49,348 bases of DNA, from IMG/VR virus record IMGVR_UViG_3300046507_000289, positions 1-49,348 of that record, one strand, 5' to 3'. A model generated the notes under the pieces. The model saw only the letters and a list, made by a program, of their open reading frames with translations, was not told the origin of the DNA and did no database searches. Each line of letters opens with the position of its first letter. Position 1 is the stretch's first letter. This stretch comes from a virus. Both the position numbers and the translations under genes were made by a program. Below are positions 2,301 to 45,570 of the stretch, piece by piece.

Positions 2301-2319
2301 GGAAAAACCACCAGAGGAA
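2301..2319 (+). repeat. 19-bp gene-boundary repeat, copy 1
   Basis: GGAAAAACCACCAGAGGAA immediately after the T-run of the terminator and 84 bases (start to start) ahead of the sheath ATG. Noncoding here. Confidence 0.85.
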
Positions 2320-2384
2320 CCAAGGCGCAGGCAGCCGCAGAATGCAGGCTACAAATTCATTTTCTTTGCCTGAAGGACTACCAC

Positions 2385-3806
2385 ATGGCTGTTGAACAGT
2401 TCCTGCACGGCGTCGAAGTCCTGGACATCGACACCGGCCCGCGCCCGATTCGCACGGCGTCGTCCAGCGTCATCGGCATCATCGGCACCGCGCCGGATGC
2501 CGATGCGGACGCCTTCCCCCTCAACACGCCTGTCCTGATCGCTGGCAGCCGCCGTGAAGCGGCCCTGCTGGATACGACCGGCAACGGCGAAGGCACCCTG
2601 CCAGCTGCCCTGGATTCCATTCTGGACCAGTCCGGCGCAGTCGTCGTGGTGGTTCGTGTGGACGAAGGCCAGACCGCAACCGAAACCCTGGCCAACGTGC
2701 TGGGCGGCGTCAACTCGAATACCGGCCAGTATCAGGGCGTGCATGCCTTCCTGGGCGCGAAGTCCGCTGTGAACGCCAAGCCGCGCATCCTGCTGGCCCC
2801 TGGCTTCACGAATACCCGCCGCGCCAACGCTGTCACCGCCATCAGCGTGACCGCGCAGGGCACCGGCTACACCAGCGCGCCTGCCGTTGCGCTGACTGGC
2901 GGCGGCGGCACTGGCGCAACCGCCGTGGCGACCGTCGAAGGCGGCAAGGTCACGAAGATCACCGTGACCAATCCCGGCACCGGCTACACCAGCGCGCCCG
3001 CAGTCGCACTGACTGGCGGCGCTGGCAACGGCGCAACCGCAACCGCATCGTTCGGCACCCTGGGCAATGCCGTGGTGGCCGAACTGGTCGGCATCGCGGA
3101 ACGCCTGCGCGCCGTCATCATCGCAGACGGCCCCGACACCAACGACGCTGCAGCCCTGGCCTACGCTGGCGATTTCGGCAGTAAGCGCGTGTACCTGGTG
3201 GACCCGAAGGCCATCAAGACCGGCACGGACGGCACGCCGTACACCGAGTTCGCCAGCCCGCTGGTGGCGGGCCTGATCGCCAAAAGCGACAACGAACGCG
3301 GCTTCTGGTGGTCGCCGTCGAACCAGGAAATCAACGGCATCGTCGGCACGTCGCGCGCCATCGACTTCAGCATGGGCGACGCATCGAGCCGCGCCAACCT
3401 GCTGAACGAAGGCAACGTGGCCACCATCATCCGTGAAGACGGATTCCGCCTGTGGGGCAACCGCACGCTGTCGTCCGACCCGAAGTGGCAGTACCTGTGC
3501 ATCGTCCGCACCAACGACATCATCGCGGACAGCCTGCAGGCTGCGCACCTGTGGGCCGTGGATCGCGGCATCACGAAGCAGTATTTCGAAGACGTGACCG
3601 AAGGCGTGAACGCTTTCCTGCGTCACCTGAAGGCGCAGGGCGCGATCCTGGGCGGCGAATGCTGGCCCGACCCCGACCTGAACACGGCGGACCAGATCAT
3701 GCTGGGCCATGCGTACTTCAATTACAAATGGACCGGCGTCTATCCGGCTGAACACATCACCTTCCGCAGCCACCTGGTTGGCGACTACATCAAGGAGCTT
3801 TTCTAA
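2385..3806 (+). CDS. FI: Contractile tail sheath protein (P2 FI-like)
   Basis: A 473-residue protein; the ATG at 2385 follows GAAGGA. N-terminus [21 protein letters not shown] and C-terminus [19 protein letters not shown] match the P2 FI sheath family. Sheath subunits polymerise around the tube and contract to drive it into the host envelope. Residues ~147-222 (2827-3057) carry an unusual insertion with two tandem copies of [15 protein letters not shown] followed by a glycine-rich turn, a beta-rich repeat not part of the core sheath fold; it sits where sheath proteins usually have surface-exposed insert domains. The tube gene begins directly after the TAA, as in P2. Confidence 0.93.
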
Positions 3807-4313
3807 ATGACCGCCCGCGACATTCGCACCAACTTTGCCCTGTTCGTGGATGGCCGCAGCTACGCGGGCGAAGCCAAGCAGGTGACGCCGCCGAAGCTGG
3901 CGCGCGTCACCGAAGACTTCCGCGCTGGCGGCATGAATGGCACGATCAAGCTGGACATGGGCCAGGAAGCCATGGACGCCGATTTCACGATGTCCAAGTA
4001 CGACCTGGCGCTGCTGGGCATGTACGGCCTGGCAGCTGGTCAGACCAAGGCCGTGACGCTGCGCGAAATCCTGGAATCTCAGGACGGCACCGTGAAGCCG
4101 GTCATCCACACCATGCGCGGCATCATCACCGAAATGGACCCTGGCACTTCCGAGCCTGGCAAGCCGGGTGAACTGAAGCTGACGTGGAACCTGCGTTACT
4201 ACAAGCTGCAACACGGCCAGACCGTCGTGCAGGAAATCGACCTGGAAAACATGGTCCACATCGTCAACGGCGTGGACATGCTGGCGCAGCAGCGCGCCGG
4301 TCTGGGCATCTAA
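3807..4313 (+). CDS. FII: Tail tube protein (P2 FII-like)
   Basis: A 168-residue protein whose ATG directly abuts the sheath stop codon. The family features are visible: N-terminal FALFVDGRSYAGEAKQVTPP, central GGMNGTIKLDMG, and a beta-rich C-terminal half ending in a helix. P2 FII is 172 residues, so length fits. It forms the rigid inner tube through which DNA passes. Followed by a hairpin without a strong T-run before gene E. Confidence 0.92.
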   Translation: MTARDIRTNFALFVDGRSYAGEAKQVTPPKLARVTEDFRAGGMNGTIKLDMGQEAMDADFTMSKYDLALLGMYGLAAGQTKAVTLREILESQDGTVKPVIHTMRGIITEMDPGTSEPGKPGELKLTWNLRYYKLQHGQTVVQEIDLENMVHIVNGVDMLAQQRAGLGI

Positions 4314-4323
4314 GCATCTGACC

Positions 4324-4350
4324 CTGGCCGCCATGTGCGGCCAGTTCTGA
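4324..4350 (+). terminator. Hairpin between tube and E genes, possible attenuator
   Basis: CTGGCCGC (4324-4331), loop CATGT, GCGGCCAG (4337-4344). Only a weak T-rich tail follows, so it may stabilise the upstream sheath-tube mRNA or terminate only partly, which would set a lower level for E and the tape measure. Confidence 0.5.
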
Positions 4351-4376
4351 ATCTATTTCACCGAAAAGGAAGAGAC

Positions 4377-10895: not shown

Positions 10896-11270
10896 CATAA
10901 TGCAACTTCACTGATGCGCAAGTACGTTGAAGCCAGTAGGGAACGCCTAGCAAGTACCGAAAACGACGGAACCGAACGCCCTATATGTGAGCCGAGGACG
11001 GAAGGCAGATGCCGTGACAGCCTGGAAAGACAGGCATTCCCGATAAGCGCATTGCGTGCAGTGCTTTTATCGGGTCTGGATGACGGTTGAGGGTACTCAA
11101 GACGGACCCCGTAAATGTCTAGCTGAACCCCAGGTTGGCGACCACAAAGCCTGACTGCTTGGAAAGACAGGCTCCAAACACCTTAAACGTGAATCGGCAA
11201 TGACGCAGGAAGCCTGCCGAGCCGCGCCGGAAACCGGCACAAGAACCCGCCTTCGTGGCGGGTTTTTCGT
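10896..11270 (+). ncRNA. Putative structured noncoding RNA with intrinsic terminator
   Basis: This stretch of ~375 bases between integrase and the next cassette has no credible gene. It begins near a -10-like CATAAT (10896-10901) and ends in a strong terminator. Between are many stable hairpins: GCCTG-GAAAGA-CAGGC (11020-11035); CCCGATAA..TTATCGGG (11039-11074) with inner GCATT/AGTGC; TTGAG-GGTA-CTCAA (11087-11100); GCAGG-AAG-CCTGC (11205-11217); GCCGG-AAA-CCGGC (11226-11238). GGAAAGACAGGC occurs twice (11024 and 11161). I see no match to tmRNA, RNase P, 6S or self-splicing intron cores. The class is unknown; a long leader of the following cassette is the alternative. Confidence 0.45.
11244..11270 (+). 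terminator. Intrinsic terminator ending the putative RNA
   Basis: ACCCGCC (11245-11251), loop TTCGT, GGCGGGT (11257-11263) followed by TTTTCGTTT. Confidence 0.88.
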
Positions 11271-11279: not shown

Positions 11280-11297
11280 GGAAAAACCACCAGAGGA
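11280..11297 (+). repeat. 19-bp gene-boundary repeat, copy 2 (18 of 19 bases)
   Basis: GGAAAAACCACCAGAGGA then T, just after the terminator and 71 bases ahead of the ATG at 11351. Noncoding here. Confidence 0.85.
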
Positions 11298-11350
11298 TGC
11301 GGCGGGTCAAACGCGGCACCATGGCTGAATCAAATTCACTGTGGGCCATC

Positions 11351-12548: not shown

Positions 12549-14084
12549 GTGGCACTGATCCGACAGCTTAGAAACACCCAGCAGCCGCAGCAGGGCGCGC
12601 AGATCGACTGGGCGAACCCGCTGACGCGGGGGCTGGCGTTCGCCTATGTTCCAGGCGTGCCGTGGGACTTGGTTGGCAAGTTCGGTGGCGCGCAGATTTC
12701 AGGCGGCGCAACCCGCCAGGGCGGCTCACTGCTGGTATCTGGCGCGGCGAGCAACGGCCTGAACCTTGGTTCTGGCGCTGTGCTGGGTTCGCTCCAAAAT
12801 TCATCCGTCGTCGTCGTCGCTGGCGTAACCACAGCCAACGGCAAGGCGCTTTATTGCGAGCGCGCGGCCAGCGGAAATGACATCTACAAGCTGGAAATTG
12901 CCGGTGCGTTTGGCTCAGCGCAGTTCACATACCGCAATGACGGCGGAACGCTACTCCAAACAAATACCGCTGCCGCTGGTGCTGTCGATGGGGCGCAGCG
13001 CCTATTTGCGATTACCAAGAATGGGACGGCACACGCAGTCTATTGCGGGCCGATAGGCACCACATCAACGGCCCCCACGCTTTCGGCCACCGGAACGATT
13101 GGCAGCGGCAGCACGGCATTTTCTAATGCTGGAATCGTGCGCTCTGTTGGCTATGACGTGGCTGACTCAAGCGCGAACGCATCCGGCCACATGGACCTGG
13201 TTCTGGGCTATGCACGCACGCTGCAGCCGGACGAAATCGCATCGCTACGGGCCAATCCCTGGCAAATTTTCAAGGCACCGAACCGGCGACTGTGGACCGT
13301 TGCCGCTGCGACTGGCACACCCACCGGCGTCAATGGCAGCCTGAACGTGACCTTGGGGGCTATCAGCCTGGCGGCTACCGGCACCGCGCCTATCGGTGGG
13401 GCTGCGGCAATCACGTTGGGGACACTTGTCGATTCTGCCAGCGGCACCACTACCGCAGCAGGTTCAGTGGCCGCGATCTTGGGCCAGCTGACTGCTGGCG
13501 GGCTTGGTACTGTCACCGCGTTCGGCGCGCTGGAAGTCACGCTGGGCAGCCTGGCACTGACGGCGGCAGGCTCTGCGCCCGCTGCAGGCAATCTGTCAAG
13601 CACACTGGCCCCGCTGACGCTGGCCGCATCCGGTGGCGTACAGGCGTCGGCAGGATTGACGGCGGCGCTGGCCCCGCTGACGTTGGTTGCAACGGGCACG
13701 GCACCGAATCCGCAGGTGCAACAGCCATCAGAGGCCACAGGGCAGCTTTCCAGATCGCTGGGCAGCCTGACCCTGGCCGCCACCGGCACCGCGCCAGCTG
13801 GCGGGCAGGCATCCATCACGCTGGGCGTCCTGGCAGCATCGGCAGCCGGGGCCGCACCTGTCGCTGGCCAGGCTGGCATAACGCTGGGCGCGCTGTCCCT
13901 GCAGGCATACGGCGGCGTGCCGGTGACTGGCAGCGGGCAGGCGATGCTGGGCGAACTGGCGCTGACGGCCACGGCAGGCATGTTCGTGTTCACGCGCAGC
14001 GAAGCACGCACATACACCGTGCAGCCAGAGAACAGGCAATATGACATCGAACCGGAAGACCGGACGTATTGGATTGAACCATGA
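12549..14084 (+). CDS. LamG-like protein with Ala/Gly/Thr repeat stalk (putative adhesin or fibre)
   Basis: A 511-residue protein starting at GTG 12549. Residues ~15-250 look like a concanavalin/LamG-type jelly roll (NPLTRGLAFAYVPGVPWDL, then GHMDLVLGYARTLQPDEIASLRANPWQIFKAPNRRLW, a typical end of phage LamG modules). Residues ~262-475 consist of about eight imperfect repeats of ~25 residues with the pattern G-x-L-x-x-x-L-G-x-L-x-L-x-A-x-G-x-AP-x-x-G. The end (SEARTYTVQPENRQYDIEPEDRTYWIEP) is a tail found on many phage virion proteins. The likely role is a virion-displayed sugar-binding or fibre-attachment protein. It is separated from the main structural operon by the integrase. Confidence 0.75.
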   Translation: MALIRQLRNTQQPQQGAQIDWANPLTRGLAFAYVPGVPWDLVGKFGGAQISGGATRQGGSLLVSGAASNGLNLGSGAVLGSLQNSSVVVVAGVTTANGKALYCERAASGNDIYKLEIAGAFGSAQFTYRNDGGTLLQTNTAAAGAVDGAQRLFAITKNGTAHAVYCGPIGTTSTAPTLSATGTIGSGSTAFSNAGIVRSVGYDVADSSANASGHMDLVLGYARTLQPDEIASLRANPWQIFKAPNRRLWTVAAATGTPTGVNGSLNVTLGAISLAATGTAPIGGAAAITLGTLVDSASGTTTAAGSVAAILGQLTAGGLGTVTAFGALEVTLGSLALTAAGSAPAAGNLSSTLAPLTLAASGGVQASAGLTAALAPLTLVATGTAPNPQVQQPSEATGQLSRSLGSLTLAATGTAPAGGQASITLGVLAASAAGAAPVAGQAGITLGALSLQAYGGVPVTGSGQAMLGELALTATAGMFVFTRSEARTYTVQPENRQYDIEPEDRTYWIEP

Positions 14085-24252: not shown

Positions 24253-24271
24253 TGAAAAACCACCAGAGGAA
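24253..24271 (+). repeat. 19-bp gene-boundary repeat, copy 3
   Basis: TGAAAAACCACCAGAGGAA (one mismatch), four bases after a stop codon, just upstream of a terminator and 69 bases (start to start) ahead of the nuclease ATG at 24322. Confidence 0.8.
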
Positions 24272-24274
24272 CCG

Positions 24275-24310
24275 AAGGCCAAGCAGCTTCATGCTTGGCC
24301 TTTATTTTTC
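24275..24310 (+). terminator. Intrinsic terminator before the VRR-NUC gene
   Basis: Perfect stem AAGGCCAAGC / GCTTGGCCTT (24275-24284 and 24293-24302) with an 8-base loop and TTATTTTTC tail. Confidence 0.88.
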
Positions 24311-24321: not shown

Positions 24322-24729
24322 ATGGGCAAGGAGCACGGAATTCAGAATGCGGGCCGCAACGCGCTGGCAATGCCTGGCGTGTTCTGCACCCGCACCAACG
24401 TGGGCAAGGGCTGGACCGGCAGCAAGGTCGTGCGCATCCCCGGCACCAAGAACATCATCATCGAGAACGCCCGCCCCTTCGACACCGGCCTGCCCACCGG
24501 CTTTTCCGACACGTTCGGCGTGGACAGCGTGACCATCACGCAGGACATGGTGGGCAAGCCCATCGGCGTCGCCTTCTTCGTGGAATACAAAGCCGACGAC
24601 GGCACCCTGTCCGCGATCCAGCGCGCGTTCCTGAAGGCCATGCGCCAGCTGGGTGCGCGTGCCGGTGTCGCCAGGTCCGCAGATGAAGCAGTTTCCATTG
24701 CGAAGGGCCACGCCCATGACGCCCTTTGA
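24322..24729 (+). CDS. VRR-NUC domain nuclease
   Basis: A 135-residue protein; ATG 24322 has GGGGTGG upstream. Residues ~5-125 match the VRR-NUC fold of the PD-(D/E)xK superfamily: TGLPTGFSDTFGV (catalytic Asp), AFFVEYKADDGTLSAIQRAFLKAMRQLGARAGVA (E-x-K, then Q-x-x-F). Stand-alone VRR-NUC phage proteins are structure-specific endonucleases, thought to resolve branched DNA in phage replication. It overlaps the next gene by 14 bases. Confidence 0.85.
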   Translation: MGKEHGIQNAGRNALAMPGVFCTRTNVGKGWTGSKVVRIPGTKNIIIENARPFDTGLPTGFSDTFGVDSVTITQDMVGKPIGVAFFVEYKADDGTLSAIQRAFLKAMRQLGARAGVARSADEAVSIAKGHAHDAL

Positions 24730-25399: not shown

Positions 25400-27714
25400 A
25401 CATGCCAGCGCAACACCACGGCTACCGCGATCTGAGCGAAAGCGAGATCGAAGACGCCCTGGGCTACCTGGACCCGAACATGGTGCGCGCCGAGTGGGCA
25501 GTTATCGGCATGGCCATCAAGTCGGAACTGGGCGAAGGCGGCCTGGCGATGTTCGACCGTTGGAGCCGTCGCGGCGACAACTACGAAGAAGCTGCTGTGA
25601 AGGACACCTGGCGTTCCATCAGTGCCAGCGGCGGCATCACGATTGCCACCCTGATTGCCAAGGCGATCCAGGAAGGCTTCGCATTCGATGAGGCGAACCG
25701 CACGCCCATCAGCCAGGCCGACATCGAGCGCCGCGAACGTGAGCGCCGCGAGCGCGAAGAAGCCGAAGCCAAGGTGAAGGCCGCCAAGCGCGAAGCCGCC
25801 GCCGTGAAGGCGAACGCGATCTGGAACGCTGCCGAAGACATCGAAGGCGACGAACACCCGTACCTGAAGCGCAAGGGCGTTCTGGCGCATGGCGTACGTG
25901 TCGGCACCTGGAAGAACATTCCAGGCTACTTACTGATTCCGATGCGCACGCCAGCTGGCGACATCGTGAGCCTGCAAGCGATTTCATCGAACCCCGACCC
26001 GACCGTGGGCCGCGCCAAGGACTTCCTGTACGAAGGCCAGAAGCACGGCACCATGCACTGGATTGGCGACGTGCCGAACGACGCCACCGTGATTATCGTG
26101 GTAACGGAAGGCTATGCGACTGGCGGCAGCATCCACCTGGCCACCGGCTACAGCGTGGCCGTCGCTTGGGACGCGGGGAACCTGCCCACCGTCGCCATGA
26201 TCCTGCGCAAGCTGCACCCGCGCGCTACCATCATCGTCGCGGCGGAAAACGACAAGTACGGGAAGGCGAACGCGGGTCTGAAGGGCGCACAGCAAGCATG
26301 CACGTCAGCGCGCGCACTGATGGCCCTGCCGAAGTTCCGCGACGAATCGAGCCAGCCCACCGACTTCAACGACCTGGCCCTGCTGGAAGGTCTGGACGCC
26401 GTGCGCGGGCAAATCAATTCCGTGCTGCCGAAGGCCGACAACGACAACGAACTGGAAGACCCGACCATTGACCTGGACGGCCAGGCCGACCCGTTCGGCT
26501 ATCCGCACAAGACGGAGAAGCACCAGCCGCTGAACACCTGGGAAAACCTGGGCTGGCTGCTGAAGCAGTACGGCATCACGGCGAAATACAACCAGGTGCG
26601 CAAGCAGGTCGAAGTCGTGCTGCCTGGCCGCGACTACAGCGCCGACAACCGCGCGAACTGCAGTCTGGCTGAACTGACCAGCATCTGCGTGCGCAACCGC
26701 ATGCCGCAGTCCCACCTTCAGGACTACGTGAAGCTGATCGCGGAAGGCAACAGGTACAACCCTGTGGCGGACTGGATCACCGGCAAGCCCTGGGATGGCG
26801 TCACCCGCATCCAGCAGCTGCTGGACACGGTGCAGACCACTGGCGACACGAAGCTGAAAGACGCGCTGATTTACCGCTGGCTGCTGTCCTGCGTCGCCGC
26901 CGCGTTCATGCCGCACGGTTTCGAAGGCCACGGCTGCCTAGTGTTCACTGGCGCGCAGGGTGTCGGTAAAACCACCTGGTTTCGCCGCTTGGCACCGTCC
27001 GACATGGGCCTGGTCCTGGTGGGCGCGATGCTGGACCCGAACAACAAGGACACCGTGACCAATGCGGTTTCCCACTGGATCGTGGAACTTGGCGAACTGG
27101 ATGCGACGTTCCGCAAGGCCGACATTGCCCGCCTGAAATCGTTCATCCCGCTGCCGGTGGACAAACTGCGCCGCCCATATGACCGCGTGGAATCGGAATA
27201 CCAGCGCAGGACCGTGTTCTGCGCATCGGTGAACGAAACCCACTACTTGGTGGACGATACCGGCAACCGTCGCTGGTGGACCGTCAACGTGTCCGGCATC
27301 GACTACCAGCACAGCATCGACATGCAGCAGCTGTGGGCCGAAATCCTGGTGCGCTTCCAGGCTGGCGAACAGCACTACCTGACGCGCGAGGAAAACGAAG
27401 CGCTGGGCCAGCTGAACGAACAGCACGAACTGATTGACCCGGTGGAAGAACAGATCGTTGCGGCGTTCGACTGGGACAAGCCATCGGTGCGGCCTGTGGA
27501 AATGACGGCCAGCGAAGTGCTGGTGGCCATCGGCTACGACAAGCCGACCAGGGCGCAGGCCACCCAGGCCAGCAACTACCTGCGCAAGCTGACCGGCAAG
27601 GAGCCACGCCGTTCCGGCAAGGGCAGGTTTTTCAGCATGCCGAGCGCGCCGAAGATGCGCAGCTGGGGCAAGCCGCAGCAGCAACAGCAAGACGACGATA
27701 GGAGTCCTTTCTAA
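25396..27714 (+). CDS. Primase-helicase (PriCT-2, Toprim-like, VirE/VapE ATPase)
   Basis: A 772-residue replication protein; GTG 25396 is used, since AGAGG lies seven bases upstream, with ATG 25402 as alternative. Residues ~8-95 are a PriCT-2 domain (YRDLSESEIEDALGYLDP..MFDRWSRRGDNY). Residues ~120-160 are a charged helix. Residues ~165-340 look like a Toprim-type primase (VIIVVTEGYATGGSIHLATG, TIIVAAENDKYG). Residues ~375-770 are a VirE-family SF3-like helicase with Walker A GAQGVGKTT (~residues 517-525), SHWIVELGELDA and VDDTGNRRWWTV. It likely primes and unwinds DNA for phage replication. ADNDNE (26437-26448) is in the linker. Confidence 0.9.
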   Translation: MNMPAQHHGYRDLSESEIEDALGYLDPNMVRAEWAVIGMAIKSELGEGGLAMFDRWSRRGDNYEEAAVKDTWRSISASGGITIATLIAKAIQEGFAFDEANRTPISQADIERRERERREREEAEAKVKAAKREAAAVKANAIWNAAEDIEGDEHPYLKRKGVLAHGVRVGTWKNIPGYLLIPMRTPAGDIVSLQAISSNPDPTVGRAKDFLYEGQKHGTMHWIGDVPNDATVIIVVTEGYATGGSIHLATGYSVAVAWDAGNLPTVAMILRKLHPRATIIVAAENDKYGKANAGLKGAQQACTSARALMALPKFRDESSQPTDFNDLALLEGLDAVRGQINSVLPKADNDNELEDPTIDLDGQADPFGYPHKTEKHQPLNTWENLGWLLKQYGITAKYNQVRKQVEVVLPGRDYSADNRANCSLAELTSICVRNRMPQSHLQDYVKLIAEGNRYNPVADWITGKPWDGVTRIQQLLDTVQTTGDTKLKDALIYRWLLSCVAAAFMPHGFEGHGCLVFTGAQGVGKTTWFRRLAPSDMGLVLVGAMLDPNNKDTVTNAVSHWIVELGELDATFRKADIARLKSFIPLPVDKLRRPYDRVESEYQRRTVFCASVNETHYLVDDTGNRRWWTVNVSGIDYQHSIDMQQLWAEILVRFQAGEQHYLTREENEALGQLNEQHELIDPVEEQIVAAFDWDKPSVRPVEMTASEVLVAIGYDKPTRAQATQASNYLRKLTGKEPRRSGKGRFFSMPSAPKMRSWGKPQQQQQDDDRSPF

Positions 27715-28646
27715 TGGCGATGGCAGTACGAATGACGCAGGTGGAGCGGTTCACGCTTGGTCTTATTGACGAAGACCAACTGACCGACTTCACGCCGCCA
27801 ACGGTCCTGTCCCTGGGCATGGGCATCAACAGCGTCGCCATCATCTGCGGCATGATCGAACGCCGAGAACGCGCACCGGATGCCATCCTGTTTGCGGACA
27901 CTGGCGGCGAGAAGAAGCGCACCTATGCGTACATCGCCATCCTGAACGCCTTCCTGCGCAAGCATGGCTGGCCGGAAGTCACCATCGTTCGCAAGGGTGG
28001 GAACGGCGAAACCCTGGAAGAAAACTGCCGCCGCAAGAACATGCTTCCGTCGCTGGCTTATGGTCGGAAGGGGTGCAGCCAGAAATTCAAAGTCGGGCCG
28101 CAGGAAGTGTGGGGCAATAAGCGATACCGCCGCTATTTCAAGGCTGGCGGCATGGTGGACAAGCTGCTTGGCTACGACTTCAAGGAAACCCGCCGCTGGA
28201 TGAAGGCCAAGCTGGAAGACGGTAAATACTTCTACCGCTTCCCGCTGGTCGAATGGGAATGGGATCGTGCGGCCTGCATCGCCGCCATCCTGCGCGCCGG
28301 TCTTCCGCTGCCGGGCAAGTCCGCGTGCTTCTTCTGCCCAGCAAGTACGCTGGATGACATCGAACATCTGCGCGTGAACGATCCCGACCAGTTCAAACGG
28401 GCCATTCGCATGGAATTCGATTCAAGGATGAACCTGAAGACGATTTATGGCCTTGGTCGTCGCTTTAGCTGGATCGAACACATTCTGAAATCCAGCATCA
28501 GCCGTGAAGAAGCGCTGAAGACGCTGGGCCTGACTGAAGCCGAAGTGGTGGCATTCGTGGGCCGCAGAGTGATCCCTATCAAAGCTGCGAACGACGACAA
28601 CATTGAAGCGTGTTCGTACTGCGTGGATTTTGAGGACGCAGCATGA
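27714..28646 (+). CDS. PAPS-reductase-like adenine nucleotide alpha-hydrolase protein
   Basis: A 310-residue protein whose ATG overlaps the primase-helicase stop. Residues ~28-70 hold a modified PP-loop (TVLSLGMGINSVAIICGMI) and PDAILFADTGGEKKRTYAYIAILNAFL. Three Cys patches follow: KGCSQKFKVGPQ, GKSACFFCPAS and ACSYCVDFE, likely metal or Fe-S ligands. Phage members of this family occur with DNA-modification or nucleotide-handling genes; the substrate is unknown here. KAANDDNIEA (28587-28601) is an expanded ANDN motif near the C-terminus. Confidence 0.82.
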   Translation: MAMAVRMTQVERFTLGLIDEDQLTDFTPPTVLSLGMGINSVAIICGMIERRERAPDAILFADTGGEKKRTYAYIAILNAFLRKHGWPEVTIVRKGGNGETLEENCRRKNMLPSLAYGRKGCSQKFKVGPQEVWGNKRYRRYFKAGGMVDKLLGYDFKETRRWMKAKLEDGKYFYRFPLVEWEWDRAACIAAILRAGLPLPGKSACFFCPASTLDDIEHLRVNDPDQFKRAIRMEFDSRMNLKTIYGLGRRFSWIEHILKSSISREEALKTLGLTEAEVVAFVGRRVIPIKAANDDNIEACSYCVDFEDAA

Positions 28647-30338: not shown

Positions 30339-31703
30339 ATGGAACTGAAAGAGATTGTGCGCGCACTGATCGAGGTGGCGCGCCACGCACACAACGCGCT
30401 GGATGATGGCGAAGCAATGCCGGACGGTACGCACCGCATCGGGCCGACTGATACGGAAAACCTGATTGCGGCCCTGGACGTGCTGGAACAGCTGCCGGAT
30501 GACAAGCCGGGGTACACGCTGGAAGGGCATGGACCAGCGAAGGCGGAATGGGCTCTGCGTGGCCTGCTGGATGGGCACCTGCTGGTGATTGATCCTGATG
30601 CGCCTAGGGCGCGTGCTGTGCCGGAATTTCTGATGGCCAGCAGCAGCCAGGTGCATCCTTACATGGGGCTGCCTTCCATGCAGGCACAGCTGGCGGACTT
30701 GTTCCAGGTGGCCGTGGATGCAGAATTCCCGATGCCGGACAGCCCGCATGCTTCCGTGGTTCAGCGTGCGGTGGACAACAGGGCCGCGATGTGGCGCGGG
30801 ATTAATGCGGCGCGGCGGATTTTGGCCCCGGTATCCGCCCAGCAGGGCGCAGCCGTGGATGCTTTACGCGAAATGGTGCGCTGGTTCGGGAAATACCCCG
30901 AGTTCGTGCCAGCAGTCGATTGCTTCGACAAGTACAAGGCCGCCATCAGGAACGCGGAAGCCATTCTCGGCGCAGCCAAAGCACCGGCAGCGCAGGCTGT
31001 AGATGCGCGAGAACTGCTGGCGGACATCAAGCGCTTGGTAAAGCTGGCCGATGATGTCGGGCGCAGCCGTCAATCGAACAGCTACGCAATGAACTCCGGC
31101 GCGGTCGAAAAGCTGGTGGACTTGCAGGCATCTGTCGGCGCGCGCATCGGCGCTCTCGCCGCATCCCCTGCCAGCACTCCCGAGGCAGGGCAGGCTGTGC
31201 CGGTGGTATTCATGGGCATCGACCCGCTGAACATCACCAAGGGCGCTGCGCTGCCGATGACCCCTGAAAGCTGGCGCATGGGGTTCTACAAGAGCGGCGA
31301 CGAACTGCGCTTCGGCTTCCTGGATAAAGGCGCACTGGTGGCATGGAATGCGGTAGCGCCTGAACAGCATCAGGACGCCGACACCGGCAAAACCCTGATG
31401 GGCTTGCGCATGGTCATTGACGACAGCCTGCCGCATGGCGTGGCTGAGTTCCGCAGCGGGCGCAGGGTGGTGCGGGTGGAGAATATCGGGAACATGCCGC
31501 AGGGCGTGCTGATGCGGGCGGATGGTGGCGGTGAGCTTCGGCCCGCTGGCTATAAGCCGTGCAGCTGTGGTGGCTGGGAATCGGAAGGCAATGCGTTCCA
31601 TGAATTGGGCTGTGCGGCGGTGCGCCAGGACCCGGTGGCGGACACGATGGACCACGCGCAGCTGCAGGCGCTGGGGAAGCAGCAGGAAGGCGGTGCAGCA
31701 TGA
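30339..31703 (+). CDS. Hypothetical 454-residue accessory protein
   Basis: The ribosome site GAAAGGA is well placed before ATG 30339. The protein begins with a ~65-residue helical module (ELKEIVRALIEVARHAHNALDDG), has an Ala-rich helical middle with repeated linkers, and a compact C-terminal part with a Cys/His cluster (YKPCSCGGWESEGNAFHELGCAAVRQD) that looks zinc-binding. The mosaic suggests an assembly of modules found in many small phage proteins. I recognise no enzyme motif and no function. Confidence 0.7.
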   Translation: MELKEIVRALIEVARHAHNALDDGEAMPDGTHRIGPTDTENLIAALDVLEQLPDDKPGYTLEGHGPAKAEWALRGLLDGHLLVIDPDAPRARAVPEFLMASSSQVHPYMGLPSMQAQLADLFQVAVDAEFPMPDSPHASVVQRAVDNRAAMWRGINAARRILAPVSAQQGAAVDALREMVRWFGKYPEFVPAVDCFDKYKAAIRNAEAILGAAKAPAAQAVDARELLADIKRLVKLADDVGRSRQSNSYAMNSGAVEKLVDLQASVGARIGALAASPASTPEAGQAVPVVFMGIDPLNITKGAALPMTPESWRMGFYKSGDELRFGFLDKGALVAWNAVAPEQHQDADTGKTLMGLRMVIDDSLPHGVAEFRSGRRVVRVENIGNMPQGVLMRADGGGELRPAGYKPCSCGGWESEGNAFHELGCAAVRQDPVADTMDHAQLQALGKQQEGGAA

Positions 31704-33150: not shown

Positions 33151-33509
33151 GCCCGCCCACCGACGCCAAGCGGGAAGCAGCGTGCTTTTTAGGCAATTAT
33201 AGCCAGCAGTGACGAACTTCAGTCACTCAAGTGACAGCGGAAATGGTTTGTTGGTCACTCACTAAGTCTTTGTTTTATATATCCTTTCTTCTATATATAG
33301 TCTTTAGTGACTAACTCGACAAAGAATAGAAAGAAAAAGGCGACCTATCAGAACCACTACAGCGGATAGGTAGGGGTATCTTTGGGAACCCGCGTCACCC
33401 AGTCACTTGGTCGAGGCGCGATGTTCCCACAGTAAATATTCCTTTACGCAACAACCTTATTGCCCGCCCGACATATTAGAATATGGTCTGCAATTATTCG
33501 GGCGGACAT
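33151..33509. promoter_or_regulatory. AT-rich regulatory stretch with AGTGAC/GTCACT sites
   Basis: No gene. It contains six AGTGAC or GTCACT hexamers (33208, 33222, 33230, 33254, 33306, 33402), two of which form the perfect palindrome GTCACT-CA-AGTGAC (33222-33235). The middle (33260-33345) is AT-rich with TTGTTT (33270) and TATATA (33292), a possible promoter. Near the end is GTAAA-N6-TTTAC (33432-33447) and TAGAAT (33477-33482), a likely promoter for the Mor-like activator. Could be control region or replication origin. Confidence 0.55.
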
Positions 33510-33995
33510 ATGCAACTACCTAAAAGCGCGCAGGAAATAGCCGACGTTATTGGCCGTGAACAGGCGTTACTTCTGATTAACAGTCTGCCCAGGGCGTACA
33601 CGCTGAAGAAGTCCGGCAGCGCAGGCAGTTCGACCAGGGGCAGCGGCAAGCGGACACCGCAGGCCACCGTCATCATGTATGTGCCGACTGTTTCCCGTTT
33701 AAACGCAAACCACGAATTCATCCGCATCCTTGGATGGAACGACGCCATCAAGCTCTGCAAAGCGTTCGGCGGGGAAATCATGTACCCGGCCATGTGTGCC
33801 GATGTGCAGCGTGATGCCAGGAACCGGAGAATCCACCAGCTGGCCGGTGAAGGGATGGCGCACAGGGCCATTGCCGAAGCTGTGAAAGTTTCGGAACGCA
33901 CCGTGAAAAATGTGCTGCGGGAAAAACCACCAGAGGAAGAACGCGCCGCTGCAAACGACAATGCAGCAGATCAAATCAGGGCGCGCGCCGAATGA
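33510..33995 (+). CDS. Mor-like transcription activator (probable late-gene activator)
   Basis: A 161-residue protein. ATG 33510 is preferred over 33483, which overlaps the predicted -10; GGGCGG precedes it. Residues ~5-25 (LPKSAQEIADVIGREQALLLINSLP) are the dimerisation-type helix pair seen in Mor/C proteins; FGGEIMYPAM resembles their FGG-x-x-x-Y-I-P strand; NRRIHQLAGEGMAHRAIAEAVKVSERTVKNVLR is the HTH. It precedes lysis, packaging and head genes, as expected for a late activator. The C-terminus carries REKPPEEERAAANDNAAD, containing both the 19-bp repeat and an ANDN motif. Confidence 0.75.
   Translation: MQLPKSAQEIADVIGREQALLLINSLPRAYTLKKSGSAGSSTRGSGKRTPQATVIMYVPTVSRLNANHEFIRILGWNDAIKLCKAFGGEIMYPAMCADVQRDARNRRIHQLAGEGMAHRAIAEAVKVSERTVKNVLREKPPEEERAAANDNAADQIRARAE
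33707..33714. repeat. GTTTAAAC palindrome, copy 9
   Basis: Coding, CGT TTA AAC in the Mor-like gene. Confidence 0.8.
33920..33938 (+). repeat. 19-bp gene-boundary repeat, copy 4
   Basis: Coding copy (GAA AAA CCA CCA GAG GAA, EKPPEE) near the 3' end of the Mor-like gene, 72 bases (start to start) ahead of the holin ATG. Confidence 0.85.
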
Positions 33996-36428: not shown

Positions 36429-38527
36429 CCGCAGCGCTGGACCTGAAACAATTTGAAAACGATGCAGGCGTGCGCCAGTCCATCCGGCGCGCGCAGAACC
36501 TGCTGCGCCCACCGCCCGACATCAAGCCGTCCGAATGGGCGGAACGGAATGTGCGCATCCCCGAAGGCAACGCCAAGCCAGGCCGCCTTCGGTTCGCTAA
36601 TGCTCCGTACCAGGTGGAACCCGTTGACCAGCTGGTGAACCCCGACTGCTACCGCGTGTCGCTGATGTGGGGCGCACAGGTTGGCAAGACGCTGGCCGCG
36701 CTGATTATGCAGGGCTTTTCCATCGAACTGCAGCCACGCAGCCAGATGATGATGCAGCCCAGCCGCGACGACTTGCTGACCTGGCTGGAAACGAAGTTCA
36801 ACCCGCTGGTGGATTCGACGCCCGAACTGAAGCGGCGCATAGCGAAGCCACGCGGGCGCGACGGCGTGAACAACCAGAAAATGAAGTCCTACCCTGGCGG
36901 GTTCCTGATGTTCGCCTGGTCCGGCAGCCCGAAGACCATGCGCGGACGTTCCGCGCCGCTGATCGTCTGTGATGAAGTGGACGGCTACGACGCCACTGCC
37001 GAAGGCCACCCGGTGGGCCTGCTGTGGCAGCGCGCCGCCACCTTCGGGGACGACCGCATGCTGGTGGAAATCAGCACGCCGACCGTCAAGGACGAAAGCT
37101 ACATTGAAAAGGCGTTCGAAGCTGGCGACCAGCGGCGGTTCCATGTCTGCTGCCCTGAGTGCGGGCACCTGCAGACCTTCAAGTGGGAGAACGTCAACTG
37201 GAAAGGCCGTGTGTCCACCGGCATTGACGACGCCGAAAAGGACATGGCCGACATGGACGCGCACGAACCGGCATCGGCGCTGTACGCCTGCGAGGGCTGC
37301 GGCGTGCTGCTGGACGACGGCCAGCGCGTGGCCGCGATCCGCAACGCGGTGCGTGACGGCGGCGGCTGGATCGCTGCCAAGCCGTTCAAGGGCCATGCGT
37401 CCTACCACCTGAACGAAATGTACAGCACGTTCCGCCGCCTGCGGGACATCGTGCAGTCCTACCTGGACAAGCTGGCTACCGACGACCTGCAGACCTTCGT
37501 GAACGTGTCGCTGTCGCGGACCTGGGAAGAGAAAGGCGAGAAGGCCGACCCGGCAAGTATGCAAGAGCGCGCGAAGCTGGAAGTGTGGCGCGCGCAGGTC
37601 CCAGCTGGCGGCGTGTACCTGACCGCTGGCGTGGACATGCAGATGGACCGCCTGGAAATCGAAGTGGTGGCCTGGGGTGAGGCGGAAGAATCCTGGTCCG
37701 TGGCCTATATCGTGCTGTGGGGCGACACGACCCAGCCAGACGTATGGGAAGACCTAGACACCCTGTGGGACGAAACCTACCTGCACGAATCCGGCGCGCA
37801 GCTGGAAGTCAAGGCCGCCGTGCTGGATACTGGCGGCACAAACGGCATGACCCAGGCGGCCTACAACTACCTGAAGGGCAAGACAGGGCGCAGGCTGTTC
37901 GCTGGTAAGGGCGTGCCAGGCTGGGACGTGCCGGTGGTTCAGGCACCCATGCGCAAGCAGTCGGGCCGCGTGAAGCGGAAAGTGGACCTGTTCAACGTCG
38001 GCGTGGACGGCGCAAAGGCCGTTGTGATGCGCCGCTGGGCGCGTGTCGAGCCGGGGCCAGGTTACTGCCACATTCCGCACGACCGTGAAGAAGAGTGGTT
38101 TAAACAGGCTACGGCGGAAAAGCTGGTGACGCGGTACGTGAAAGGCCAGCCGGTGCGCGAGTGGCACAAGCCGGACAAGGCGCGAAACGAAGCGCTGGAC
38201 TGCCGCGTGTATGCCTACGCGGCCCTGAAGATCATGAACCCGCCGCTGAAGCGCCTGTCCGAACGCATGCGCGCGCAGATGCCGGAAAAAGTACCGTTTA
38301 AACAGATTGAGCCAAAGGCGGCGCAGTCCCGCGAAGAGTGGGCGAAGGAAACCGCCAACAAGGCAATTCGTCTGCGCGACGCACTGGAAACGCTGCGCGA
38401 AACCAGGGCGGAAAAACCACCAGAGGAACCAAAACCCCAACCCAAGGAAACTGCGAAGGTGGAGCGACCCAGCAAGCCCGCAAAGCGGACTGCTGCGAAG
38501 CGCAAGAATTTCGCAACTACATGGTAG
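36425..38527 (+). CDS. Large terminase subunit (GpA-like ATPase/nuclease)
   Basis: A 700-residue protein of the lambda GpA family. RPPPDIKPSEWAERNVRIPEG is the characteristic N-terminal segment; Walker A-like WGAQVGKT (~residues 82-89), Walker B LIVCDEVDGY (~179-188), then zinc-like Cys motifs CCPECG and CEGCG, then the nuclease domain (TAGVDMQMDRLEIEVVAWGE.. and DCRVYAYAA). It cuts concatemers and drives DNA into heads. It carries two GTTTAAAC sites and ends with a Pro/Lys/Glu-rich tail that includes EKPPEEPKPQ. Confidence 0.95.
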   Translation: MTAALDLKQFENDAGVRQSIRRAQNLLRPPPDIKPSEWAERNVRIPEGNAKPGRLRFANAPYQVEPVDQLVNPDCYRVSLMWGAQVGKTLAALIMQGFSIELQPRSQMMMQPSRDDLLTWLETKFNPLVDSTPELKRRIAKPRGRDGVNNQKMKSYPGGFLMFAWSGSPKTMRGRSAPLIVCDEVDGYDATAEGHPVGLLWQRAATFGDDRMLVEISTPTVKDESYIEKAFEAGDQRRFHVCCPECGHLQTFKWENVNWKGRVSTGIDDAEKDMADMDAHEPASALYACEGCGVLLDDGQRVAAIRNAVRDGGGWIAAKPFKGHASYHLNEMYSTFRRLRDIVQSYLDKLATDDLQTFVNVSLSRTWEEKGEKADPASMQERAKLEVWRAQVPAGGVYLTAGVDMQMDRLEIEVVAWGEAEESWSVAYIVLWGDTTQPDVWEDLDTLWDETYLHESGAQLEVKAAVLDTGGTNGMTQAAYNYLKGKTGRRLFAGKGVPGWDVPVVQAPMRKQSGRVKRKVDLFNVGVDGAKAVVMRRWARVEPGPGYCHIPHDREEEWFKQATAEKLVTRYVKGQPVREWHKPDKARNEALDCRVYAYAALKIMNPPLKRLSERMRAQMPEKVPFKQIEPKAAQSREEWAKETANKAIRLRDALETLRETRAEKPPEEPKPQPKETAKVERPSKPAKRTAAKRKNFATTW
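38098..38105. repeat. GTTTAAAC palindrome, copy 10
   Basis: Coding, TGG TTT AAA CAG in the terminase. Confidence 0.8.
38296..38303. repeat. GTTTAAAC palindrome, copy 11
   Basis: Coding, CCG TTT AAA CAG in the terminase, 198 bases from copy 10. Confidence 0.8.
38410..38428 (+). repeat. 19-bp gene-boundary repeat, copy 5
   Basis: Coding copy (EKPPEE) in the terminase tail, 100 bases before its stop. Confidence 0.85.
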
Positions 38528-40675: not shown

Positions 40676-42656
40676 GAAACTGCAGCAGCATTTGCGCGAG
40701 ATTCAGCAGCGCGGCGTCCAGTACCGGGCCGCCATCGTTGATTCGAAGACCATCGACGTTGAAGCGCGCACCGTCGAACTGGCGTTCGCCAGCGAAACCG
40801 AAAAGGTGGAGCGCTGGTACGGCATCGAAGTGCTGGGCCTGAATGCCGATGAAATCGACATGTCCCGCATGAACAACAGCGCGCCGGTCGTCTGGATGCA
40901 CGACCTGAAGGACCAGCGCGGCGTGGTTGTCCCTGGCACCGCCCGCGTGGACTCCGACCGTATCGCGCGCTGCACGGCGCGGTTCAGCCGCAGCGCTGAA
41001 GGTGAAAAGCTGTTCCAGGACATCATCGACGGCATCACCACGAAGGTTTCGGTGGGCTACACCGTCCGCAGCATGAAGCTGGTGGAAGAACGCGACGGCA
41101 TAGACGTGTACCGCATCGACGGCTGGCAACCCTACGAAGTCAGCATGTGCAGCGCGTCCGCCGACGACGAAAAAACCGGCGTGGGCCGTTCGCTGAATCC
41201 TGCGGAAAAACCACCAGAGGAAACACCGCCTGAACAGGTGGAAACTCCGTCCAGCATCGACATTTCCGCTGCAACGCGGGCACATACCAAGGAACCAAAA
41301 CACATGGAAAAGCAATACCGCTACTTCCGCGACGCGCGGGGATTCTGCAAGGTCGAGAAAGACCAGGAAGGCAACGACATCGGCCAGGTCGTCGTCCTGG
41401 AACCGGCAGGCGCTGAACGCAGCGCAGGCACCAGCGCCGAGCGCGCCCGCACCGACGGCATCCTGGCCCTGGCAGACAGCTATTCTGGCCAGCTGCCGCA
41501 GGCGCGCGACCTGGCCGCCAAGTTCATCAAAGAAGGCAAGACCGGCGAAGAGTTCCAGCGCGAACTGCTGGCCGAGTTCGGCAAGCGCAGCAGCACGCCG
41601 CTGTCCGAACAGTCGCAGAACCACGGCGGCGAAACCGGGATGTCGGAAGCCGATGTGCGCCGCTACTCGCTGGCCAACGTCATCCGCGCCCTGGCGAACC
41701 CGAACGACCAGAACGCGCAGAAAGCCGCCGCCTTCGAAATCGAATGCAGCGTGAACGCGCAGCGCACCCTGGGCAAAACTGCGCAGGGCATTCTGGTTCC
41801 GCCCGATGTCCTGTCGCGTGCGATGAGCACGACCCAGCAGGGCGCTGGCGCAACCATGGTGGACGTGTCGAAGATGTCCATGCTGGACCTGCTGCGCAAC
41901 CGCACCGTGATGATGCAAATGGCAACCGTCATCGGCGGCCTGGTCGGCAACGTGGACATTCCGAAGCAGGTTTCGGACGGCCAGGCTTACTGGCTGGGTG
42001 AAGGCCAGGACGCGACCGAAACCGGCTTCACCGTGGGCCAGATTTCCTTCGCGCCGAAGACCGTGGGCGCGTTCACCGACATCACCCGCCGTCTGCTGCA
42101 GCAGTCGAACCAGGCCGTGGACAGCCTGGTGCGCGCCGACCTGATGCGCGCCCTTGGCACGGCCATCGACCGCGCCGCGCTGTACGGCACCGGCAGCGAT
42201 TACCAGCCGCTGGGCCTGAAGGGCCAGAAGGGCATCAACGCCGTGGACTTCGCAACCGCGCAGAAGCCGACCTTCGCGGAACTGGTTCAGATGGAAACCG
42301 AAATTTCGGCGGACAACGCCGATGCGGGCAGCCTGGCGTACCTGATCCACTCGCGAATCCGTGGCCACGCCAAGACCGCACCGAAGTTCGGCGCGGGCAC
42401 CGAAGCAACCATCTGGGAACCGGGCAACACCATCAACGGCTACCGCACCGAAGTGACCAACCAGCTGGTGGCCAACGACGTGTTCTTCGGCAACTTCGCG
42501 GACTTCCTGATTCTGCTGTGGGGTGGCCTGGACCTGACCGTGGACCCTTACAGTCTGTCGAAGTCGGGCAGCATCCGCATCGTCGCGTTCCAGGACGTGG
42601 ACATGGGCCTGCGCCGCGCCGAGTCGATGTGCTGGGGTTCCGACCAGGTGGCGTAA
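40668..42656 (+). CDS. Prohead protease fused to HK97-type major capsid protein
   Basis: A 662-residue fusion; the ATG at 40668 overlaps the portal stop. Residues ~20-170 are an S78-type protease (VELAFASETEKVERWYGIEVLG, WMHD with His78, KVSVGY with Ser128). Residues ~175-190 contain EKPPEETPPEQ. Residues ~213-662 are the HK97-like capsid domain with a scaffold-like helical delta region (SGQLPQARDLAAKFIKEGKTGEEFQRELLAEF), then TLGKTAQGILVPPDVLSRAM, WLGEGQDATETGFTVGQISFAPKTVGAFTDITRRLLQQS and a strand-rich end. An internal ATG at 41304, with AAGGAA nine bases upstream, may give capsid protein alone. Confidence 0.93.
   Translation: MNKKLQQHLREIQQRGVQYRAAIVDSKTIDVEARTVELAFASETEKVERWYGIEVLGLNADEIDMSRMNNSAPVVWMHDLKDQRGVVVPGTARVDSDRIARCTARFSRSAEGEKLFQDIIDGITTKVSVGYTVRSMKLVEERDGIDVYRIDGWQPYEVSMCSASADDEKTGVGRSLNPAEKPPEETPPEQVETPSSIDISAATRAHTKEPKHMEKQYRYFRDARGFCKVEKDQEGNDIGQVVVLEPAGAERSAGTSAERARTDGILALADSYSGQLPQARDLAAKFIKEGKTGEEFQRELLAEFGKRSSTPLSEQSQNHGGETGMSEADVRRYSLANVIRALANPNDQNAQKAAAFEIECSVNAQRTLGKTAQGILVPPDVLSRAMSTTQQGAGATMVDVSKMSMLDLLRNRTVMMQMATVIGGLVGNVDIPKQVSDGQAYWLGEGQDATETGFTVGQISFAPKTVGAFTDITRRLLQQSNQAVDSLVRADLMRALGTAIDRAALYGTGSDYQPLGLKGQKGINAVDFATAQKPTFAELVQMETEISADNADAGSLAYLIHSRIRGHAKTAPKFGAGTEATIWEPGNTINGYRTEVTNQLVANDVFFGNFADFLILLWGGLDLTVDPYSLSKSGSIRIVAFQDVDMGLRRAESMCWGSDQVA
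41204..41222 (+). repeat. 19-bp gene-boundary repeat, copy 6
   Basis: Coding copy (EKPPEE) exactly at the junction of protease and capsid domains, 100 bases (start to start) ahead of the internal ATG 41304. Confidence 0.85.
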
Positions 42657-43459: not shown

Positions 43460-43773
43460 TGCCTGCGCCAGCCTGGGAAGACCTGTCCGACTTCTTCGAT
43501 GCGGGCGAGTTCGCCACGGAAGCCGTGGTGCATTTCCAGGCTGGCGGTTCGCGTACTGTCACCGGCAACTACGAAGACCCCTACCTGGACGCCAAGGCTG
43601 GGGAATACGTCATGGACACCACGGAACCGCGATTCATGGCACCTGCCAGCGCACTGGTGGGCATCCGTCGTGGCGACACCATCCAGATACCCGGTGAAGG
43701 GGTCTTCGATATTCTTACCGGCCCGCAGCCAGACGGCACCGGCCTGGCCCAGCTGAAGCTGGCGAAGCAGTAA
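43459..43773 (+). CDS. Head-tail joining protein (FII / head-closure-like)
   Basis: A 104-residue protein overlapping the preceding stop. DLSDFFDAGEFATEAVVHFQAGGSRTVTGNYEDPYLD, then MAPASALVGIRRGDTIQIPGEGVFDILTGPQPDGTGLAQLKL follows the lambda gpFII (Phage_attach) plan with strand order and the RRGD-I-x-I turn. It caps the portal and accepts the tail. Confidence 0.8.
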   Translation: MPAPAWEDLSDFFDAGEFATEAVVHFQAGGSRTVTGNYEDPYLDAKAGEYVMDTTEPRFMAPASALVGIRRGDTIQIPGEGVFDILTGPQPDGTGLAQLKLAKQ

Positions 43774-44327
43774 TGTCCCTGCTGCACTTCGAAATCGACG
43801 CCCAGGGGCTGGAAGGCATCATCCTGGACCTGGGCGCGACCGAAAAGCAGGTGAAGTTCGCCATACATCGCGCCGTGGCCCGCACGGCCACCGCGCTGCG
43901 CACCATGGCGGCCCGCAGGCTGAAGGACGAACTGCAGCTGCGTACCATCCAGCTGCTGCGGCAGCGTCTGAAGTCCCTGCGCCTGCGCGTCACGGACGGC
44001 GACGGCATGACCCTGTGGTTTGGCCTGAACGACATGCCTGTGTCCTGGTTTAAGGGCACCCCGAAGCAGGACGCTAGTGGCGCGCGCTTCCGTGGCCAGG
44101 AATTCGCGGGCGCGTTCGTGGCAAAAAGCCGGTTCAAGGGCCGCAAGACTGTGTTTAAACGAAATGGCGACCAGCGCCTGCACATCACAGAGCAGCTGCT
44201 GCCCATCACCGACAAAGCCCAGGTGGTCATCGAAGATGAAATCTTCGTCCAGACTGAAACGATTTTTTGGCGGATATTCGAACGTGAGCTACGCGCCCGC
44301 GTGCGTTACCGCATTGGTGAGGCATGA
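43773..44327 (+). CDS. Minor tail protein Z-like
   Basis: A 184-residue protein beginning MSLLHFEIDAQGLEGIILDLGATEKQVKFAIHRAVARTATALRTMAARRLKDELQLR. The GpZ/prophage minor tail family pattern (helix, then LWFGLNDMPVSWFKGTPKQDASGARFRGQEFAGAFVA..FKGRKTVFKRNG) is clear. It completes the head-tail interface. GTTTAAAC at 44153 encodes the VFK of KTVFKRN. Confidence 0.83.
   Translation: MSLLHFEIDAQGLEGIILDLGATEKQVKFAIHRAVARTATALRTMAARRLKDELQLRTIQLLRQRLKSLRLRVTDGDGMTLWFGLNDMPVSWFKGTPKQDASGARFRGQEFAGAFVAKSRFKGRKTVFKRNGDQRLHITEQLLPITDKAQVVIEDEIFVQTETIFWRIFERELRARVRYRIGEA
44153..44160. repeat. GTTTAAAC palindrome, copy 12
   Basis: Coding, GTG TTT AAA CGA in the minor tail Z-like gene. Confidence 0.8.
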
Positions 44328-44887
44328 CGACTGAAACCAACCTGACGCAGCTGCACGACATCATCGTGGCCACGCTGCGCGCCCAGTTCCCCGCAATGAA
44401 GGCGGTGGAGTTCTACCGAGAAGGTCAGGATGGCCGCGAACCGCTGCGCGCCGAAGACCTGCCCGCCTGCATTCTGGATCTGACGGAACTGGAAGAGGAC
44501 CCCGAAGAGGAACCCGGCACCGGCCAGCTGGCCGCCCGCTTCCGTTTCGAAGCTGATCTGGTGCTGCCGTTCCGCGCCCTGCGCAGCAAGCTGGCAATAC
44601 GGCTGCAGGCGGCTTCGTTCGCGTCCTACCTGCGCAAGCAGTCCCGCTGGCCTGGCATCAATCAGGCTGGCCGCATCGAAGCCATCAACGCCTACAGAAG
44701 CGACTTCCAGCCGGAACTGGACCAATACGAGGTCTGGCGGGTCGAATGGCGGCAGCTGCTGCACATCGGCACCGACGTGTGGGCCGACCTGCCGGGTAGC
44801 CCTGGCACGCCGTCCACCGTGTTCCTGGGTGAGTTCCCGGAAATCGGCCCTGGTAACGAACCCAACTATGACCAGGTGGCACCGTGA
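44324..44887 (+). CDS. Tail completion-type protein, family uncertain
   Basis: A 187-residue protein overlapping the Z-like stop. It begins with a helical segment (TQLHDIIVATLRAQFPAMKAVEFYREGQDG), an acidic loop (EDPEEEPGTGQLAARF), then FRFEADLVLPFRALRSKLAIRLQAASFASYLRKQSRWPG, resembling tail terminator folds of the lambda gpU kind. It lies between Z and the spike gene V, so a role at the tail's head-proximal end is likely. Confidence 0.68.
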   Translation: MTTETNLTQLHDIIVATLRAQFPAMKAVEFYREGQDGREPLRAEDLPACILDLTELEEDPEEEPGTGQLAARFRFEADLVLPFRALRSKLAIRLQAASFASYLRKQSRWPGINQAGRIEAINAYRSDFQPELDQYEVWRVEWRQLLHIGTDVWADLPGSPGTPSTVFLGEFPEIGPGNEPNYDQVAP

Positions 44888-45549
44888 GCGCTGAACTGGA
44901 ACGCATGCTGGCCAACCTGGTCCGCATCGGGCGCGTGGCGGAAGTGGACACCGCGAACGCCCGCGTGAAGCTGCAGATTGGCGGACTGACCACCGACTGG
45001 CTGCCCTGGGGAGTCGGGCGCGCTGGTACGACCCGCACCTGGTCAGCGCCGACCGTTGGCGAACAGCGCGTGATTCTGTCGCCCTACGGGGACATGACGC
45101 AGGCCGTGGTAGGCGCTGCGATCTATCAGGACGACCACGCCGCACCCGCGTCCAGCGGCGACCAGGAGCACGTCGTTTTCCCTGACGGCAGCAGCGTGGA
45201 CTTCAACAGCGCGACGAATACGCTGACCGTCAACGTGGCGGGCGCTGGAAACGTGATCGTGAATTGCAAGCACGCCACCGTGAACGCGACCGAAGACGCG
45301 ACAACAAACACCAAGACTGCCACAGTGAACGCCAGCACGAAGGTGGAACTGGCCACGCCGCTGGTCCACTGCACCCAGGCTCTGACCGTGGAAGGCGTCC
45401 TGACGTACAAGGGCGGCTTGGTGGGTTCTGGCGGCGGCACCACCGCAACCATCAACGGCAACATGAACGTGAACGGCAACATCGGCCTGAACGGCAACAT
45501 GACGGCCAGCGGCGCTGTCACGGACGGCAACGGCGACGGCGGCGCGTAG
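44884..45549 (+). CDS. V: Baseplate spike protein (gpV-like)
   Basis: A 221-residue protein from GTG 44884. Residues 1-~90 are the OB-fold of gpV/gp45 (ELERMLANLVRIGRVAEVDTANARVKLQIGGLTTDWLPWGVGRAGTTRTWSAPTVGEQRVILSP). The rest is a repetitive beta-helix (FNSATNTLTVNVAGAGNVIVNCKHATVNA.., TINGNMNVNGNIGLNGNMTASG) that forms the membrane-piercing needle. P2 gpV has 211 residues. Confidence 0.93.
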   Translation: MSAELERMLANLVRIGRVAEVDTANARVKLQIGGLTTDWLPWGVGRAGTTRTWSAPTVGEQRVILSPYGDMTQAVVGAAIYQDDHAAPASSGDQEHVVFPDGSSVDFNSATNTLTVNVAGAGNVIVNCKHATVNATEDATTNTKTATVNASTKVELATPLVHCTQALTVEGVLTYKGGLVGSGGGTTATINGNMNVNGNIGLNGNMTASGAVTDGNGDGGA

Positions 45550-45551
45550 CC

Positions 45552-45570
45552 GGAAAAACCACCAGAGGAA
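45552..45570 (+). repeat. 19-bp gene-boundary repeat, copy 7
   Basis: GGAAAAACCACCAGAGGAA, two bases after the gpV stop, 49 bases (start to start) ahead of the gpW ATG. Confidence 0.85.

Follow-up and report, generated by a model that had tools for sequence, protein, structure and literature searches.

The stretch analysed here, referred to as the window (49,348 bp, its whole length), is a separate virus record, IMG/VR IMGVR_UViG_3300046507_000289, and contains a 19-bp repeat in seven copies together with a gene for a putative late transcriptional activator. An exact 126-bp terminal repeat (1-126 = 49210-49335) implies a circular unit of 49,209 bp. Its genes begin with terminase, portal, a protease-capsid fusion, gpV, gpW, gpJ, tail fibres, sheath, tube, tape measure, gpX, gpD and integrase; after the integrase come replication genes and then the late activator and lysis genes. 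This gene content and order place it among the small myophages. The window phage, a myophage of 49 kb, has its kin in Jilinvirus, Micavirus, Manovirus and Foxunavirus. The seven copies of the 19-mer, each with a predicted -10 element downstream, are as follows.

33920-33938, plus strand: site 1, 19-mer at the 3' end of the activator gene, where it codes for EKPPEE; homologous position in relatives
33957-33962, plus strand: predicted -10 of site 1, GACAAT, with the predicted +1 at about 33969
38410-38428, plus strand: site 2, 19-mer in the 3' end of the terminase large subunit gene; same place in 12 of 12 relatives
38447-38452, plus strand: predicted -10 of site 2, GAAACT
41204-41222, plus strand: site 3, 19-mer at the protease/capsid boundary
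41241-41246, plus strand: predicted -10 of site 3, GAAACT
45552-45570, plus strand: site 4, 19-mer in the gpV-gpW gap
45589-45594, plus strand: predicted -10 of site 4, GAGAAT; the gpW ATG (45601) is at or near the predicted +1
2301-2319, plus strand: site 5, 19-mer between an intrinsic terminator and the tail sheath gene
2338-2343, plus strand: predicted -10 of site 5, CAGAAT
11280-11298, plus strand: site 6, 19-mer with one mismatch, after an intrinsic terminator and before a virion structural gene (phrog_3758)
11317-11322, plus strand: predicted -10 of site 6, CACCAT
24253-24271, plus strand: site 7, 19-mer with one mismatch, before a resolvase/endonuclease gene (24322-24729)
24290-24295, plus strand: predicted -10 of site 7, CATGCT, overlapping an intrinsic terminator

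All seven positions reported in the first-pass annotation are correct, and the minus strand of the window holds no copy. Five copies are exact and two have a single mismatch (last base T at 11280, first base T at 24253), leaving an invariant 17-bp core, GAAAAACCACCAGAGGA, that is identical in 7/7 copies. The chance expectation is 0, there being no match in 100 dinucleotide shuffles with up to three mismatches allowed. Three copies are coding and share one reading frame (EKPPEE), as had been claimed, and the four noncoding copies have the same bases. The codons shared by the coding copies include rare ones (CCA, 16% of Pro codons, and AAA, 18% of Lys codons, in the eight genes counted); this, together with the identical bases of the noncoding copies, implies that the constraint acts on the DNA. 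An eighth, supposedly decayed copy at 40643 does not hold up, since it has five mismatches, where 0.9 such matches are expected by chance, and no promoter score. In a scan of viral contigs for exact matches, otherwise uninformative, the 17-mer turned up in 19 further contig stretches, a single time in each, implying that its repetition is private to the window phage.

What the first-pass annotation missed is a fixed element downstream. When the sequences that follow the repeat are aligned, all seven window copies have an A at +20 and a T at +24, within hexamers (listed above) whose degenerate, sigma-70-like consensus, (G/C)ANA(A/C)T, lies 18 bp past the 19-mer. The second base, A(-11), and the last base, T(-7), are those that matter most in a sigma-70 -10 hexamer. 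With the hexamer T set to -7, the 19-mer occupies about -49 to -31. The same A and T are present in 42 of 45 nonredundant copies from the window and eight relatives, with any other offset reaching at most 6. Across the seven copies the -35 hexamer is matched at no more than 3/6 positions at 16-18 bp spacing, and there is no extended -10 (TGn). Predicted promoters that lack a -35 imply that an activator is needed, and the sigma-70 character of the -10 suggests that the host polymerase acts together with it. A sigma-70 consensus scan misses these sites because they have no -35.

A candidate activator is encoded in the same genome.

33483-33995, plus strand: late transcriptional activator of the Mor/C type (phrog_836), proposed to bind all seven sites
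33894-33920, plus strand: codons of the predicted recognition helix, residues 138-146 (ERTVKNVLR), in the 170-residue reading frame

The gene is directly upstream of the lysis genes, and the C gene of phage Mu is likewise just upstream of lysis genes. Its product is related in sequence to Mu Mor and C: it matches phrog_836 at 5e-26 (and phrog_532 at 2e-4), the family that Mor and C themselves match at 1e-10 and 2e-11. Its Pfam Mor score of 23.9 bits is just below the 24.9 cut-off, and Pfam Mor is matched by the activators of 3 of 10 relatives, at best with 6e-8. When it is aligned directly with Mor/C by hhalign, the LGG and helix-turn-helix (HTH) regions align in order, weakly (E 0.004 and 0.05). 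The weak direct alignment and the sub-cut-off Pfam score thus identify the protein, by its sequence, as a distant branch of the Mor/C family. The structure model, from which the position of the recognition helix is taken, is confident (predicted local distance difference test score, pLDDT, 86.6), and a PDB fold search with it gave HTH domains only among the best 50 matches, Mor (1RR7) not being among these; a search of solved structures by sequence likewise yielded generic HTH domains only. The conserved C-terminal NDN of the activator family is encoded by AAC GAC AAT, which is the embedded -10, and its conservation probably reflects the promoter rather than the protein.

If the repeat is the site of this activator, relatives are expected to carry a site of their own and not the window sequence. 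Twelve isolated relatives were retrieved via the activator, and their repeats were found by counting repeated words, without prior alignment. Most have one dominant late-strand repeat: GGAAATCCCACAAGAGGAA in Persinger, GGAAATCCCACGGGAGGAA in Mica, TGACACCCCGCACGAAGAA in Arya, TGACAAGCCGCACGAAGAA in KA2-1, TGACAAACCCCAAGAAGAA in ECOO78, HeidiAbel and ep3, GACAAACCCAAAGAAG in MQ-4, GGAAATTCCGGACATGG in FoX3, AAAAAGCGCAGGATGAA in Alexa and, with slight variation between copies, GGAAAA.CCGCAAGAGGAA in Mano. That of PPpW-3, GGCAAACCCACAAGAGGAA, is masked by another repeat and was located by position. In the Jilinvirus HeidiAbel (Bas97 of the BASEL collection) sites are found at 2425, 5164, 9466, 13922 and 39192. 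In all 12 the 19-mer differs from that of the window and is lineage-specific, and none of the 12 has copies on the opposite strand. The sites are syntenic, occupying five homologous loci: the 3' end of the terminase large subunit gene, the protease/capsid boundary, the gpV-gpW gap, the region before the tail sheath, and the 3' end of the activator gene before the holin. Alexa has three sites, with the gpW and lysis copies missing, and in Arya and KA2-1 the lysis copy is degenerate. The window has two sites beyond these five. The one at 11280, before a structural module, is matched by none of the sites in the 12 relatives; the one at 24253, before a resolvase-like nuclease gene, recurs ahead of that gene in L039, L041, L045 and L070. 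The first-pass annotation had named scattered sites in relatives, or conservation of EKPPEE as a peptide only, as findings that would count against a DNA element at gene ends; the sites of the relatives are not scattered, and conservation extends beyond EKPPEE.

The sites can also be predicted from one genus to another. A 45-column matrix trained on the other genera (leave-one-genus-out) and applied to the window ranks its seven copies 1-7, with 18-36 bits, the next match scoring 7.6. An independent set of 69 further activator-encoding loci, scanned with the 19-mer part alone, gave 104 sites on the strand of the activator against 2 on the other strand, with A and T in the -10 register at 93 of the 104; 49 of these loci have one or more sites that pass the strict threshold.

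Activator and site co-vary among 51 nonredundant pairs, the site being taken in each case from outside the activator gene. Site base 2 varies with residue 139 (Arg-G in 37/37, Glu-C in 4/4, Gln-A in 2/2) and site base 4 with residue 143 (Asn-A in 25/25, Arg-C in 5/6). On the predicted recognition helix one turn separates these residues, and the pairings Arg-G, Gln-A and Asn-A are well known from protein-DNA contacts. Distance in the HTH region correlates with site distance beyond the N-terminal domain (partial Mantel r 0.26, 8/5000 permutations). On the best tree residue 139 changes about 5 times and base 2 about 6 times; independent-pair tests on the activator tree are underpowered, with 1 to 3 supported pairs. 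With a simple code of Arg139-G, Glu139-C, Gln139-A, Asn143-A and Arg143-C, the protein sequence would suffice to predict its site; we regard this code as a strong lead but not proof, since the tree is too poorly resolved for a formal test. Residues 147-150, which were also scored by mutual information, were dropped as circular because they fall in the repeat copy embedded in the activator gene.

We conclude that the repeat copies are very probably late promoters with sites for the phage's own Mor/C-type activator. Each 19-mer and its -10 would form one late promoter, at which host RNA polymerase would depend on activator bound to the 19-mer. Synthesis of the activator would then turn on seven units of transcription, namely those of lysis/packaging, the portal, the capsid, the baseplate with the tail fibres, the genes from tail sheath to tape measure, an additional structural module and the resolvase. 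Site 1 would drive holin and endolysin, and probably also terminase, and site 2 the head-tail joining and portal genes.

Several points weigh against this conclusion. Binding, activation, start points and timing we infer from sequence. The weak dyad of the 19-mer (CC.C..G.GG, centre 12.5, z 3.1) is one of 18 centres tried, and it is centred at about -37.5, compared with -43.5 for Mor at Pm. Of the 69 further loci, 20, most of them short or distant, yielded nothing that passed the strict threshold. The partial Mantel correlation of 0.26 is modest, and the activator tree is so poorly resolved that, over well-supported branches, a single independent pair carries the co-variation.

Could the repeats instead bind a phage repressor or ParB-like protein, in the manner of L5 stoperators or dispersed centromere sites? 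The copies are oriented repeats dispersed through a phage genome, and a ParB-like protein is encoded in the window. However, a -10 stands alongside at fixed spacing, nearly all copies precede late units, and the site bases follow the recognition helix of the late activator, the protein for which co-variation was tested, so that we consider this very unlikely. Of the three readings offered in the first-pass annotation (boundary sequence, mRNA processing site, leader element), the leader came closest, in that copies are found where operons end and ahead of genes, but specifically we read them as promoters. A boundary conserved for module exchange between phages, the main idea of that annotation, would account for copies at operon and domain ends, and identical repeats within one genome are able to recombine. 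Lambdoid boundary sequences, however, are shared between phages with differing modules, whereas here each relative has its own 19-mer at the same loci; a sequence not shared by relatives cannot serve exchange between lineages, and neither the fixed -10 spacing nor the one-strand orientation is needed for recombination, making a boundary extremely improbable. There is hardly any likelihood that the repeat is an RNA element (an mRNA processing site, a put/nut-like antitermination site or a translational leader), for although some copies adjoin terminators or hairpins and AGAGGAA looks Shine-Dalgarno-like, no RNA structure is common to all copies, start codons lie about 30 to more than 80 nt past the repeat, and the AN3T motif has -10 bases at promoter spacing.

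The late promoters proposed here have their parallel in phage Mu, where a phage-coded activator of the same family likewise serves several dispersed promoters, C acting at Plys, PI, PP and Pmom and Mor at Pm (PMC4287176, PMC4461284). In both phages the activator site, putative in the window, is just upstream of or over the -35 region, followed by a -10, and Pm too has no -35 (PMC4287176, PMC4461284). At Pm, a middle promoter, the Mor dyad spans -51 to -36 (PMC4287176). The window sites have the layout of Mor/C promoters, with a -10, no -35 and the putative activator site just upstream. Unlike Mu, the window phage is not transposable; its site is near-perfectly repeated (17/17 in seven copies) and has at most a weak dyad; and there are 5-7 sites, three of them within coding sequence, with a site that changes from lineage to lineage. 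Phage P2 (Ogr/Delta) is similarly a small contractile-tailed phage with dispersed, activator-dependent late promoters, and the window tail genes are P2-like. Ogr, however, is a zinc-finger protein whose site is a TGT-N12-ACA dyad near -55, in contrast to the predicted helix-turn-helix activator and different site of the window. Promoters of the T7 type resemble the repeat in being one near-identical, lineage-specific sequence of about 20 bp on one strand, but are read by a phage RNA polymerase, whereas the window -10 is of the sigma-70 type. Mor/C-activated promoters are thus already known from Mu, and what is new is the regulon of this group, its apparent lineage-by-lineage retargeting and the predicted promoters in coding sequence; no earlier description of such promoters in these phage genera was found in the literature searched, from which subscription journals were mostly absent.

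How did each lineage come by a private site? On balance we favour the view that the late regulon has been re-addressed during divergence, the recognition helix and the five to seven promoter copies, those within terminase, capsid and the activator gene included, changing together. If this is true, these phages offer a rare natural series of some 50 lineages in which one transcription factor and 5-7 dispersed targets change in step, so that regulon retargeting and the working of intermediate steps become directly testable. A late-gene control system and an operon map would also be provided for a little-studied myophage group, mutually insulated activator-promoter pairs may serve as tools, and conserved peptides such as EKPPEE and the C-terminal NDN can be promoter shadows rather than protein features.

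Four further elements surround the sites.

2273-2293, plus strand: intrinsic terminator at the end of the preceding late operon, 8 bp 5' of site 5
11241-11267, plus strand: intrinsic terminator, 13 bp 5' of site 6
24274-24303, plus strand: hairpin resembling a terminator, which overlaps the site 7 -10 and start (folding free energy, dG, -36.0; z -6.8)
45579-45604, plus strand: perfect 10-bp inverted repeat that loops out the site 4 -10, the gpW ATG lying within the 3' arm

With terminators 8 and 13 bp before the copies at 2301 and 11280, terminator and predicted promoter would together form the joint between late operons. The overlap of hairpin and -10 at site 7 is also seen in L039, L041 and L045. 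Hairpins resembling that at site 4 are present in ECOO78, HeidiAbel, ep3, MQ-4, Mano and PPpW-3; the gpW start codon may be buried in read-through RNA and free in RNA from the promoter or, alternatively, gpW may be translated from a leaderless late mRNA. At site 3 an in-frame ATG at 41304 marks the start of the shell part of the capsid protein, and an in-frame ATG lies 79-100 nt past the capsid copy in 10/10 phages checked. This conservation suggests that, besides the protease-capsid fusion, shell protein is produced on its own from a second start.

The final 13 bases of the window (49336-49348) do not continue the terminal repeat and resemble, in reverse complement, sequence that lies some 50 bases upstream; they are probably an assembly end artefact. 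Two open reading frames, one of 511 residues with internal repeats (12549-14084) and one of 454 residues (30339-31703), have no PHROG family match. The early region also carries an auxiliary metabolic gene, for a phosphoadenosine phosphosulfate reductase (27714-28646).

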